From Microcella frigidaquae (GTDB lineage Bacteria > Actinomycetota > Actinomycetes > Actinomycetales > Microbacteriaceae): DNA of 64,000 nt. Of the stretch, positions 42,918-48,331 are shown piece after piece. The stretch covers positions 1,178,001 to 1,242,000 of the forward strand of contig NZ_JACHBS010000001.1 in assembly GCF_014200395.1 (NCBI RefSeq), written 5' to 3'. Every line of letters begins with the position of its first letter. Position 1 is the stretch's first letter. The notes under the pieces were generated by a model. That model was not told the origin of the DNA, did not search any database, and saw only the letters and a program-made list of their open reading frames with translations. The position numbers and the translations under genes were made by a program.

Positions 42918-43361
42918 ATGACCCGCATGATGACCGGCCGCGCCCGCACGACCGCTGCGCGCGTCACCGCCCCGATCGGCGCCACCGCCGCCCTACTCGG
43001 CACGCTGACCGGCTGCGCGACGGCGGCCGCCGAGGCCGAGGTGCAGACCCCGGTCGACGCGAGCTACCGCGACGGCACCTATCAGGCGAACGGCACCTAC
43101 GAGTCGCCGAACGGCAGCGAGAACATCATCGTGCTCATCGAGCTCGAGAACGACATCGTCACCGACGTCGAGATCACCACCAACCCCAACAACCCCACCA
43201 CCGCCAACTACCAGGGCCAGTTCGCCTCCGGCATCGCGGATCTGGTCGTCGGGCGCGACATCGATCAGCTCGATGTCACCGTCGTCGCCGGCTCGTCCCT
43301 GACCAGCAACGGCTTCCGCGAGGCGCTGACGGCCATCAAGGCCGACGCCGTCGAGAGCTGA
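42918..43361 (+). CDS. FMN-binding domain lipoprotein (RnfG/NqrC-like carrier)
   Basis: 147 residues. Lipobox LTGC (Cys33), a short spacer and an FMN-binding domain (~50-145) with YRDGTYQANGTY. The likely flavinylation site is AGSSLTS (Thr129), which corresponds to the SGAxxT motif of covalently FMN-loaded proteins. It should be anchored outside the membrane and carry electrons through a phosphoester-linked FMN. Directly followed, 13 bases on, by the apbE gene whose product attaches the flavin. Confidence 0.87.
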   Translation: MTRMMTGRARTTAARVTAPIGATAALLGTLTGCATAAAEAEVQTPVDASYRDGTYQANGTYESPNGSENIIVLIELENDIVTDVEITTNPNNPTTANYQGQFASGIADLVVGRDIDQLDVTVVAGSSLTSNGFREALTAIKADAVES

Positions 43362-43374
43362 GCCGGCACCGCGC

Positions 43375-44283
43375 GTGACGCAGACCGGCCCGACCGCGTT
43401 CGAGGCGATCGGCACTGCCTGGCGCATCGGTCTGGGCGGCTCCGGCACGCCGACCTCCTCCCTCGGCGCCGCGCTGAGCGAGGACGATAGGGAGGCCGTG
43501 CTCGCCCGCATCGCGCAGTTCGATCGCGACTGGTCGCGCTTCCGCGACGACTCCCTCGTCTCCCGCATCGCCCGGGAGCCCGGGTCGTGGACCCTTCCGG
43601 CCGACGCCGAGCCCCTGCTCGACCTCTACGAACGCCTGCACGCGGCGACGGATGCCCGCCTGAGCCCCCTCGTCGGCGCCAGTCTCGAACGGCTCGGCTA
43701 CGACGCCGCCTACCGCCTGCAACCCGCCGGCGACCCGCTGCCGGCACCCCGCTGGCAGGATTCGCTCTCCCTGCGCCGCACCGCCGACGGCCTGGTGCTC
43801 GACACGGCGACGCCGCTCCTGCTCGATGTGGGAGCGGCCGGCAAGGGGTACCTCGTCGACCTGGTGGGCGAGCTACTCGTGCAGCGCGGGCTGCCCGACA
43901 CGGTGGTCGACGCGAGCGGCGACGTGCGCGTGCGGGGGGAGCGCAGCATCCGCGTGGCCCTCGAGAACCCGTTCGACCCCTCGAAGGCGCTCGGCGTCGT
44001 CGAGCTGCGCGATCAGGCCCTGTGCGCCTCGGCGACGACGCGGCGGGCCTGGGGCGAGGGGCTGCACCACATCATCGACGCGATCACCGGCCGCCCGGTC
44101 GACGCCGTCGTCGCGACCTGGGTCATCGCCGACTCCGCGCTCGTGGCCGATGGCGTCGCGACGGCGATGTTCCTGGCCGACCCGGCGCGTCTGTGCAGGG
44201 TTTTCGCGGTGGAATGGGTTCGACTGATGGCTGACGGGCGGCTCGAGGCGAGCGCCGGTCTTCGAGGGGAGCTGTTCGCATGA
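43375..44283 (+). CDS. apbE: FAD:protein FMN transferase (ApbE)
   Basis: 302 residues. Transfers FMN from FAD to a Thr on target proteins, using Mg2+. Conserved blocks: LLDVGAAGKGYLVDLVG, VVDASGDVRVRG and HHIIDAITGRPVDAVVATW, then ADGVATAMF. There is no evident signal peptide or lipobox, unlike many ApbE proteins, so the enzyme may act before or during export, or the start may be further upstream. Its expected target is the FMN-binding lipoprotein just before it, and possibly the membrane protein after it. Confidence 0.93.
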   Translation: MTQTGPTAFEAIGTAWRIGLGGSGTPTSSLGAALSEDDREAVLARIAQFDRDWSRFRDDSLVSRIAREPGSWTLPADAEPLLDLYERLHAATDARLSPLVGASLERLGYDAAYRLQPAGDPLPAPRWQDSLSLRRTADGLVLDTATPLLLDVGAAGKGYLVDLVGELLVQRGLPDTVVDASGDVRVRGERSIRVALENPFDPSKALGVVELRDQALCASATTRRAWGEGLHHIIDAITGRPVDAVVATWVIADSALVADGVATAMFLADPARLCRVFAVEWVRLMADGRLEASAGLRGELFA

Positions 44284-45764
44284 GGGCACGCATCGACGCA
44301 CTGACCGGCCGGGTCAGCATGTACCGGCTGGCGACGATCACGCTCGCGATCGTGCTCGCGCAGGCCGTGCTGTTCGCCTTCCTCGACGTCATCGGGCCCG
44401 ACCCGTACGCGATCCTCGGCACGCTCGGCGTCGTGATCGTCGCGACGCTCGGCGCGAACGAGATCGCGGCGCGGCTCGCGCGCGTCGTTCCGCACCGCGA
44501 GTCGAGCGTCATCACGGCGCTCATCGTCACGTGCATCGTGCAGCCGAGCCTCACGATGCCGGGCCTCGTCGCGGCCGCCGGCGCGGGCGTTCTCGCCGCG
44601 CTGTCGAAATACCTGGTCGTCTGGCGCGGGCGGCACCTGCTCAACCCCGCCGCGACCGGCGTGTGGGTCGCGGGGCTCATTGGCTACGGCTTCGGTCAGG
44701 GCGTCGGTTTCTGGTGGGTGGCGACGCCCGCCCTGCTGCCGGCGGTCGCGGTCGGTGCCCTTCTGCTGCTCGACCGCACGCGGCGCCTCGACGTGGGTCT
44801 GGTCTTCGTGCTGCTCACGATCGTCATCATCGGCGCACGGCTCGTGGCCACGGGCACGGCACCGCTTGGTGCGGTGACGACGGTGCTGCAGCTGTTCCCG
44901 GTCGTCTTCCTCGCCGGCTTCATGCTGAGCGAGCCGCTGACCCTGCCGCCGCGCCGCTGGCAGCAGTGGCTGACCGCCGCCGTCACCGCGGTGGCCTTCT
45001 CGATCCCGTTCGGGTTCGGCCCGATCTACACTTCCCCCGAGCTCGCGCTCGTGCTCGGCAACATCGTCGCCTTCGCGGTCTCGCGCCGCGGCGGTGTCTC
45101 ACTGCGGCTCGTCGAGCGCGCTCCGCTCTCCGACCACGCCACCGAGTACCGCTTCGAGCCCTCCCGCCGGTTCGCCTTCGAGGCCGGGCAATACCTCGAG
45201 CTGCACCTGCCGCACCGCGCCGACATCCGCGGCACGCGCCGCACGTTCTCGATCGCGTCGGCGCCCGAGCTGGCCGCGACCGAGCAGTCGCGCGTCGCGA
45301 TCGGCATGCGGACCCCCGAGGGGGGCAGCTCGTTCAAGGCGGCGCTCGCCCAGCTCGAACCCGGCACCCCCGTCGCCGTGACCCAGGTGGCGGGCGACTT
45401 CCTGCTGCCCCGCGACCCGGCGGTTTCGCTGCTGATGGTCGCCGGGGGCATCGGCATGACGCCGTTCGCGAGCCAGCTCGCGAGCCTCGCCGCGCGGGGC
45501 GACCAGCGCGACATCGTGCTGCTCGTCGTCAGCTCGAACCCCGGCGAGGTGCTCTACCGCGAGGCGGCCGAGGCCGCGGGAGCCCGCATCGTCGAGGCCT
45601 CCCCCGACCAGCTGACACCGGATGCCCTCCCCGAGCTCGTGCCCGACCTCGCCTCCCGGCGCGGGTTCGTCTCCGGCGCGCCGTCGCTCGTCGCCACGGC
45701 CCGCACGGCCCTGCGGCGCGCGGGAGTCCGCCGCGTGCACACCGACTACTTCGCCGGGTACTAG
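44280..45764 (+). CDS. RnfD/NqrB-like membrane domain fused to a ferredoxin-NADP-reductase-like domain
   Basis: 494 residues. N-terminal ~275 residues contain about eight or nine membrane helices with RnfD/NqrB features, including HLLNPAATGVWVAG. C-terminal ~215 residues are an FNR-type flavoprotein: FAD motif RRTFSIASA near residue 320 (RxxS type), NAD-binding GGIGMTPFASQL near 385, and a C-terminal aromatic ending DYFAGY. The protein should pass electrons from NAD(P)H through FAD across the membrane to the FMN lipoprotein. The iron-sulfur ferredoxin domain of NqrF is missing. ATGA overlap with apbE. Confidence 0.85.
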   Translation: MRARIDALTGRVSMYRLATITLAIVLAQAVLFAFLDVIGPDPYAILGTLGVVIVATLGANEIAARLARVVPHRESSVITALIVTCIVQPSLTMPGLVAAAGAGVLAALSKYLVVWRGRHLLNPAATGVWVAGLIGYGFGQGVGFWWVATPALLPAVAVGALLLLDRTRRLDVGLVFVLLTIVIIGARLVATGTAPLGAVTTVLQLFPVVFLAGFMLSEPLTLPPRRWQQWLTAAVTAVAFSIPFGFGPIYTSPELALVLGNIVAFAVSRRGGVSLRLVERAPLSDHATEYRFEPSRRFAFEAGQYLELHLPHRADIRGTRRTFSIASAPELAATEQSRVAIGMRTPEGGSSFKAALAQLEPGTPVAVTQVAGDFLLPRDPAVSLLMVAGGIGMTPFASQLASLAARGDQRDIVLLVVSSNPGEVLYREAAEAAGARIVEASPDQLTPDALPELVPDLASRRGFVSGAPSLVATARTALRRAGVRRVHTDYFAGY

Positions 45765-46387: not shown

Positions 46388-48331
46388 TCACCGGTCGACC
46401 AGCGGCCCTGCGGGCCCCGTGCCGAGCGACGCCTCCGCGTCGGGCACGGGGCCCGTCGTCGTGCGGGACGACCGCGGCGCAGCATCCAGCCCCGCGACCG
46501 GGGCGACGCCGGCGCGCACGGCGCGCAGCGCCCCGAGGATGGCGATGAGGTCGACGACCTCCTGCAGCGTCGCGCCGACGATGGCGGGCAGCAGTCCGAC
46601 GGCCGCGACGAGCATGAGGCCGACCGAGATGACGATGCCGAGCCAGATGCTCTGCAGGGCGATGCGCACCGTGCGGCGGCCGATCGCGACCGCGCGGGCG
46701 ACGCGGGCGATGTCGTCGAGCAGGATCACGACGTCGGCCGACTCGCTCGCCGCCGTCGAGCCCTTGGCGCCCATCGCGATGCCGACGTCGCTCACAGCCA
46801 GCACGGGAGCGTCATTGACGCCGTCGCCGACCATGACGACCGGGCGCGGCTGCGCCTCGCGGATAATGCGCACCTTGTCGTCGGGCAGGCACTCGGCGTG
46901 CAGCTCGGTGATGCCGAGCGACGCGGCGATCGGCCCGGCCGTCGCCGCGACATCGCCGGTGACCATGAGGATGCGCTCGGCTCCGAGCCCGCGCAGGGCG
47001 ACGAGCGTGTCGGCGGCGTCGTCGCGCACCGCATCCCGCAGCACGATGACGCCGGCGAAGCGGCCGTCGACCGCCGCGTAGACCACGGCCGCGCCGCTCT
47101 CGGCCGCGTGCGGCACGAGGTCGGCCGCGTGCTCGGCGACGAAAGCGGGCTTGCCGACCCGCACCCGCCGACCGTCGATGGTCGCCTCGACACCGAAGGT
47201 CGCGACCTCGCGCGCGTCGGTGGACGGGCTGAGGCTGCCCGCACGGTCGAGCGCCGCCTGCTGGATCGACGCGGCGAGCACGTGCGAGGAGTACTGCTCG
47301 GCCGAGCCCATGAGGTGCAGCAGCTCGCGCTCGTCGAACCCGGGCTGCGGGTGCACGCCGACGACGGCGGGGCGCCCCTGCGTCAGCGTGCCCGTCTTGT
47401 CGAACGCGACCGTGCGCACGCGGGCGAGCTTCTCGAGCGAGGCAGCGCTCTTCATGACGATGCCGCGCTTCGCCGCACTGCTCATGCCGCCCATGAAGGC
47501 CACCGGCGCCGCGATGAGCAGCGGGCACGGCGTGGCGACGACGAGCACCTCGGCGAAGCGCACCGGGTCGCCGCTGACCGCCCACGCGACGCCCGCGATC
47601 GCGAGGGAGACGCCGGTGAACGGCAGGGCATAGCGGTCGGCGAGCCGCACGAGGGGGGCCTTGCTGCTCGAGGCCTCGCGCACGAGCTCGACGATGCGCT
47701 GATACTGGGAATCGGCGGCGACGGCGGTCGCCACGATCTCGATCGCGGTCGGGCCGTTGACCGAGCCGCTCAGCACCGGGTCGCCGATGGCTTTGTCGAC
47801 CGGCAGGCTCTCGCCGGTGAGCGACGACTCGTCGAGGCTCGCGAGCCCGCTGGCGAGGTCGCCGTCGACGGGCAGGATCTCGGCCGGACGCACGAGGAGC
47901 CGGTCGCCGACCCGCACCTGGTCGACGGCGATATCGGCGACCGAGCCGTCGGCCTCGATGCGGTGCGCCTGCTGTGGCACGCGGTCGAGCAGCGCCCGCA
48001 GCTCGCGCTGGGCCCGGCCCGCGGCAGCGACCTCCAGCGCCTCGCCGCCGGCGAGCATGAAGACGATGATCAGGCTGGCCCAGTACTCGCCCACGACGAC
48101 CGTGCTGACGATGGCCGTGACGGCGAGGATGTCGAGGCCGAACTGCTGGGCGAGCAGGCCGCGCACCATGCTGACCGCCTCCATCACGGCGATGCCGAGC
48201 GCGTAGAGCGAGACGAGCCAGCGGGCAGCGGGCTCGAGGCCGTTGAGTGCGAGCGCGCCGGCGATGATCGCGACCAGCACGGTCAGCGCGACGAGGGGGA
48301 AGCGGCGCACGAGCGCGACGAGGCGGGTCAC
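46388..48331 (-). CDS. Heavy-metal P1B-type ATPase with TPC motif
   Basis: 647 residues. Exports or imports a metal using ATP. Actuator TGES, ion-site TPCPL in helix 6 (rather than CPC), phosphorylation DKTGT near 315, and hinge GDGVNDAP are present. The usual SEHPLA loop reads SSHVLA. There is no N-terminal metal-binding CxxC domain. The TPC motif places it away from standard Cu(I) or Zn(II) pumps; the metal is uncertain. It lies 54 bases downstream of the tiny Cys-rich gene, both probably under the CsoR-like operator at 48553-48568. Confidence 0.92.
   Translation of the reverse strand: MTRLVALVRRFPLVALTVLVAIIAGALALNGLEPAARWLVSLYALGIAVMEAVSMVRGLLAQQFGLDILAVTAIVSTVVVGEYWASLIIVFMLAGGEALEVAAAGRAQRELRALLDRVPQQAHRIEADGSVADIAVDQVRVGDRLLVRPAEILPVDGDLASGLASLDESSLTGESLPVDKAIGDPVLSGSVNGPTAIEIVATAVAADSQYQRIVELVREASSSKAPLVRLADRYALPFTGVSLAIAGVAWAVSGDPVRFAEVLVVATPCPLLIAAPVAFMGGMSSAAKRGIVMKSAASLEKLARVRTVAFDKTGTLTQGRPAVVGVHPQPGFDERELLHLMGSAEQYSSHVLAASIQQAALDRAGSLSPSTDAREVATFGVEATIDGRRVRVGKPAFVAEHAADLVPHAAESGAAVVYAAVDGRFAGVIVLRDAVRDDAADTLVALRGLGAERILMVTGDVAATAGPIAASLGITELHAECLPDDKVRIIREAQPRPVVMVGDGVNDAPVLAVSDVGIAMGAKGSTAASESADVVILLDDIARVARAVAIGRRTVRIALQSIWLGIVISVGLMLVAAVGLLPAIVGATLQEVVDLIAILGALRAVRAGVAPVAGLDAAPRSSRTTTGPVPDAEASLGTGPAGPLVDR

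Follow-up and report, generated by a model that had tools for sequence, protein, structure and literature searches.

A Microcella frigidaquae operon of the NQR/RNF-like flavinylation system, with an ApbE that has no visible export signal

How does a protein that is exported receive a covalent flavin from an enzyme that has no visible means of leaving the cytosol? The question is raised by three adjacent genes within a 64,000-nucleotide stretch (the window) of the Microcella frigidaquae genome, which is a single contig of 2.55 Mb. All three are on the forward strand, between genes for a formyltetrahydrofolate deformylase (upstream) and an Hsp20 protein (downstream). The first encodes an FMN_bind-like lipoprotein of the NqrC/RnfG kind (42918..43361; 147 residues), the second an ApbE, or FAD:protein FMN transferase (43375..44283; 302 residues, GTG start), and the third a fusion of 494 residues (44280..45764) in which an NqrB/RnfD-like membrane domain (residues ∼1–267) is joined to an FAD/NAD(P)H reductase domain (residues ∼270–494). 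The lipoprotein and ApbE frames are separated by a 13-base gap, and the ApbE and fusion frames share an ATGA overlap. This layout is as given in the first-pass annotation of the sequence, and its reading of the domains is borne out by profile and fold comparisons.

The ApbE matches PF02424 with a score of 134.8 bits (cut-off 25.6). The lipoprotein scores 19.3 bits against FMN_bind (Pfam; curated cut-off 22) and has, by eye, an LTGC lipobox with Cys33 as its mark of export; ApbE is adjacent to it, in line with the published definition of the system, which asks for clustering with ApbE or an FMN-binding gene and for a signal or lipidation site on one of them. The C-terminus of the fusion aligns to NAD_binding_1 (PF00175) with 20.8 bits and an E-value of 6.4e-4, below the cut-off of 22, which we count as a match; the same family is found in 23 of the 29 aligned fusion proteins at E ≤ 0.01. 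By sequence the nearest relative of the reductase domain is GcoB (PDB entry 5ogx; E-value 7.4e-18), with NqrF at 2.3e-9. The profile search with PF03116, the RnfD/NqrB family, does not reach the window fusion; at E ≤ 0.01 it finds 17 of 23 N-terminal domains and nine of 29 full-length proteins (the window protein is included in both sets). It counts against the reading that the 50 matches Foldseek lists for the fusion comprise only soluble reductases and NADPH oxidase, and that RnfD and NqrB surface only on a second look using VIA-align. The similarity of the N-terminal half to NqrB/RnfD, on which the first-pass annotation had staked its interpretation, is present by both sequence profile and fold. 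The fusion reads TGTAPL at the position where SGATPL, which may be the type of motif flavinylated in the RnfD/NqrB membrane subunit, would be expected; the region lies outside the PDB profile alignment. Surveys of NQR/RNF-like systems that use Pfam cut-offs may overlook this lineage, as the proteins of the window fall short of the scores required for PF03116 and PF04205.

The distribution of the operon was searched in 199 genomes of the host's taxonomic family, including its own. There are 80 whole-length or nearly whole-length matches to the fusion in 79 of these genomes (G097 has two). Close database relatives for which a genus is given are chiefly Microcella, and also Chryseoglobus. Within the host genus 22 of 26 genomes have a copy; the remaining four are 71 to 86% complete. 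To these loci were added 27 named loci, which were drawn from 80 listed matches by leaving out a truncated locus (L029) and the reductase-only loci L031–L082. The order lipoprotein–ApbE–fusion, which had been proposed as a check in other genomes, recurs in 99 of the 107 loci (75 of 80 in the host family and 24 of 27 named), and this recurrence confirms that the operon is real and more than a chance arrangement. The exceptions in the host family are L180, L183 and L186, in which the lipoprotein directly precedes the fusion with no ApbE between them, and L120 and L090, which have no lipoprotein nearby (L090 is at a contig edge). Among the named loci, L003 has no lipoprotein and its contig starts inside ApbE, and L010 and L020 show neither gene. 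L180, L183 and L186 belong to one genus, and ApbE is found elsewhere in those genomes. At L163 ApbE and the fusion form a single open frame. Its fusion part lacks the first 41 model positions, and the linker resembles an out-of-frame reading, so the joined frame is most likely due to a frame break or an assembly artefact, and it was set aside.

The operon is a member of the already published NQR/RNF-like flavinylation system, and neither its architecture nor the model for its function is new. That system, described mainly from Actinobacteria and candidate phyla (PMC8238504, 2021), likewise has an exported FMN-binding subunit, a clustered ApbE, and NqrB/RnfD-like and PF00175 domains in one protein (PMC8238504, PMC11334425). 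A complex from Ktedonobacter has been modelled with AlphaFold-multimer, with the FMN site close to an apparent non-covalent flavin site (PMC11334425, 2024). With Rnf and Na+-NQR the operon shares RnfD/NqrB-like, RnfG/NqrC-like and NqrF-like domains; it differs from them in that the membrane subunit of the NQR/RNF-like family is reported to have lost its covalent FMN site (PMC11334425). It also differs in its missing parts. Pfam finds no 2Fe-2S domain in the fusion, and nothing in the complete genome matches PF02508, the iron–sulfur membrane pair (RnfA/E, NqrD/E), at E ≤ 0.001 (as a control, the search was positive in four of 14 named genomes), which agrees with the earlier statement that the ferredoxin domain of NqrF and the other Rnf/Nqr subunits are absent. 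The published descriptions, in the parts available, report no biochemistry for the subfamily, and the available text of an Rnf/Nqr review (PMC12174285) mentions neither ‘fusion’ nor ‘rnf-like’.

The electron chain drawn in the first-pass annotation, leading from NAD(P)H to FMN outside the membrane, agrees with the model already in print (PMC8238504, PMC11334425), and we consider it highly probable that the operon encodes an NQR/RNF-like system with this electron path. NAD(P)H would reduce the FAD in the C-terminal domain of the fusion, and the RnfD/NqrB-like domain would carry the electrons through the membrane, presumably via a non-covalent flavin, to an ester-linked FMN on Ser127 of the exported lipoprotein, from where they would pass to some outside acceptor; ApbE would be the enzyme that attaches the FMN to Ser127. 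The opposite direction, in which electrons gathered by the lipoprotein outside the cell are used by the fusion to reduce NAD(P)+ within it, is improbable: at the usual flavin potentials NAD(P)+ accepts electrons poorly, and the neighbourhood of the operon in the 107 loci has no conserved enzyme that could serve as an outside donor. It draws its support from the semicircular path of Nqr, which returns electrons from the outside FMN to the cytosolic side (PMC11334425), and from a direction of flow that is reversible in principle (PMC8238504).

By simple ORF picking, the 107 loci have neither a further gene nor an iron transporter that is conserved next to the operon, and the same holds for genes of iron reduction or redox repair, two uses suggested in the first-pass annotation. 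The biggest group of neighbouring ORFs (60 of 107 loci) reads the operon itself in antisense; the groups that follow cover at most 20 of the 107 loci and resemble shared synteny, and some of them are antisense as well. A P-type metal ATPase-like ORF lies downstream on the reverse strand (46388–48331), and related ORFs are found near the operon in 11 of the 107 loci, including the window; this is probably shared synteny.

The residue predicted to carry the flavin was originally given as Thr129. The alignment points instead to Ser127, two residues before it: Ktedonobacteria-type and candidate-phylum relatives have SGAT or TGAT at the place of A124-G125-S126-S127 (43287..43298, forward strand), and since AGSS thereby falls on [S/T]GA[S/T], Ser127 is the predicted site. 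The published substrate motif of ApbE is D-x-x-[S/T]-G-A-[S/T], in which the last residue is modified and threonine is preferred over serine (PMC12052999). The window lipoprotein has T-V-V-A-G-S-S, where only the Gly and the final Ser fit; Thr, Ala and Ser stand in place of the consensus D (−6), S/T (−3) and A (−1). Its AGSS also sets it apart from two Ktedonobacteria-type and most of the other non-actinobacterial loci aligned, which have SGAT or TGAT. These deviations, and a serine rather than the preferred and common threonine, count against the proposed mechanism. They could mean that the altered motif has lost its site and that FMN is absent or loosely bound, for which the FMN_bind score below the cut-off also speaks.

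A tally of the 99 loci in which both the motif and the type of ApbE are readable makes such a loss very unlikely. All 88 substrates next to an ApbE of the window's type (first strand of the F-x-[A/G/S]-[I/L]-G-x-x-W type) end in SS (AGSS in 69, SGSS in 16, GGSS in two and ASSS in one; 26 of the 88 have D at −6), and all 11 substrates next to an ApbE of the [M/W]-[G/N]-[M/T]-P type have GAT or GAS. We drew up both types as patterns with the data already in view, and most of the rows are related, which makes the pairing a correlation and no tally of independent events. ApbE is, in addition, kept adjacent in 75 of the 80 host-family loci, and serine sites are known (PMC8238504, PMC12052999). Two Uhrbacteria loci (L017 and L022) have the actinobacterial type of ApbE and the SGSS motif together, and the pair may have moved as a unit.

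If Ser127 is indeed flavinylated, the side of the membrane on which this happens becomes the main question. The sole in-frame ATG, GTG or TTG upstream in the window ApbE is eight residues before the first core strand. Export signals were sought with a plain hydropathy window (mean of 1.6 over 15 residues) rather than a dedicated signal predictor, across 60 open-frame residues preceding the core, regardless of start codon. Of 102 ApbEs adjoining a fusion, 99 were readable (L163 is frame-joined, and L003 and L090 are cut), and none of the 99 reaches 1.6, the frame being long enough in 82 and too short in 17; the highest are L017 (1.59) and L160 (1.58), just under the limit. For comparison, the ApbE Ftp of Escherichia coli has a value of 1.99, and the limit is passed by 101 of 120 listed lipoproteins and by 97 of 103 cluster substrates, the latter over a stretch of 110 residues, which is longer than that used for ApbE. 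The test misses some true signals, as the failure of 19 of the 120 lipoproteins and six of the 103 substrates indicates. In the host genus, 22 of 29 ApbE loci could be read from start to core, with a top hydropathy of 0.68. The other seven are L215, which is cut, and L001, L204, L205, L206, L230 and L231, which lie away from a fusion and are unreadable by pattern; no signal is seen by eye in L001, L204, L205 or L206. The first-pass annotation was right that ApbE has no visible export signal here, and it called this unusual; as far as hydropathy can tell, a signal-less ApbE is the rule for this system family and not a peculiarity of the locus.

We favour, tentatively, attachment of FMN in the cytosol, on the precursor and before export. 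This would be the most likely place because no export signal is visible in either ApbE of the genome, the one in the cluster or the second. A motif of seven residues is enough for ApbE (PMC12052999), which makes it plausible that an unfolded precursor is modified. The enzyme is described as periplasmic in the typical case, and an early study found that a cytosolic version did not complement (both in PMC12052999); these two points weigh against attachment before export. The same machine might also work with ApbE outside, having left the cell by a signal-less route or with a partner and flavinylating the lipoprotein there. The description of the family as typically membrane-anchored and periplasmic (PMC12052999) fits such an arrangement; the lack of a hydrophobic stretch in all 99 readable cluster ApbEs does not, and we regard it as unlikely. 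Judged by start codon, only 37 of the 99 can be scored at all: in 52 the farthest start within 70 residues leaves a segment of fewer than 15 residues, and in ten there is no ATG, GTG or TTG within that distance. An ApbE outside would presumably also require FAD outside the cell; in Listeria, transporter subunits are reported for the export of flavin to ApbE (PMC9973259). None of the titles and abstract openings found places ApbE in the cytosol while its substrate is exported; such a case may be shown in figure 4 of PMC8238504.

Two further routes were considered and rejected. A second, exported ApbE acting in trans does not fit the genome, in which the sole other PF02424 match (G000:C1:1526426–1527181) has no signal by eye, nor does it fit 14 of the 19 host-genus genomes that are at least 90% complete, where the ApbE beside the fusion is the single PF02424 match (all 14 are among the 22 read from start to core). 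Export of a folded, flavinylated substrate by Tat is not suggested by the window signal, which by eye has no RR pair; L117 and L133 are among the relatives that have one.

The second ApbE belongs to a locus of its own outside the window (L001; G000:C1:1524926–1528681), where, also signal-less, it precedes a ferric-reductase-type membrane protein with an FNR domain and a 2Fe-2S-like end. We read the membrane protein as MsrQ-like, making the locus a candidate copy of the MsrQ-like flavinylation system, which resembles the present operon as an actinobacterial transmembrane reductase with a clustered ApbE and differs in having a haem-binding MsrQ-type membrane protein instead of RnfD/NqrB (PMC8238504). 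An FMN_bind search of the genome at E 0.001 gave no match and also missed the window lipoprotein, so a missing substrate is not demonstrated for the genome.

The locus adds a puzzle that extends through the family: the flavin transferase seems to be inside and its substrate outside. It is possible, although we hold this with some doubt, that in NQR/RNF-like systems, and perhaps in actinobacterial flavinylation more generally, a precursor receives FMN on a short motif in the cytosol while it is still unfolded and is then exported with its FMN bound. If true, proteins would have a second route of flavinylation, one that precedes export and that here goes with a matching ApbE type and GSS motif. 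No FAD exporter would be needed, because the FMN would already be bound on export, and the precursor of a covalent flavoprotein would cross the membrane together with its cofactor, which would change the view of where extracytosolic flavoproteins are made.
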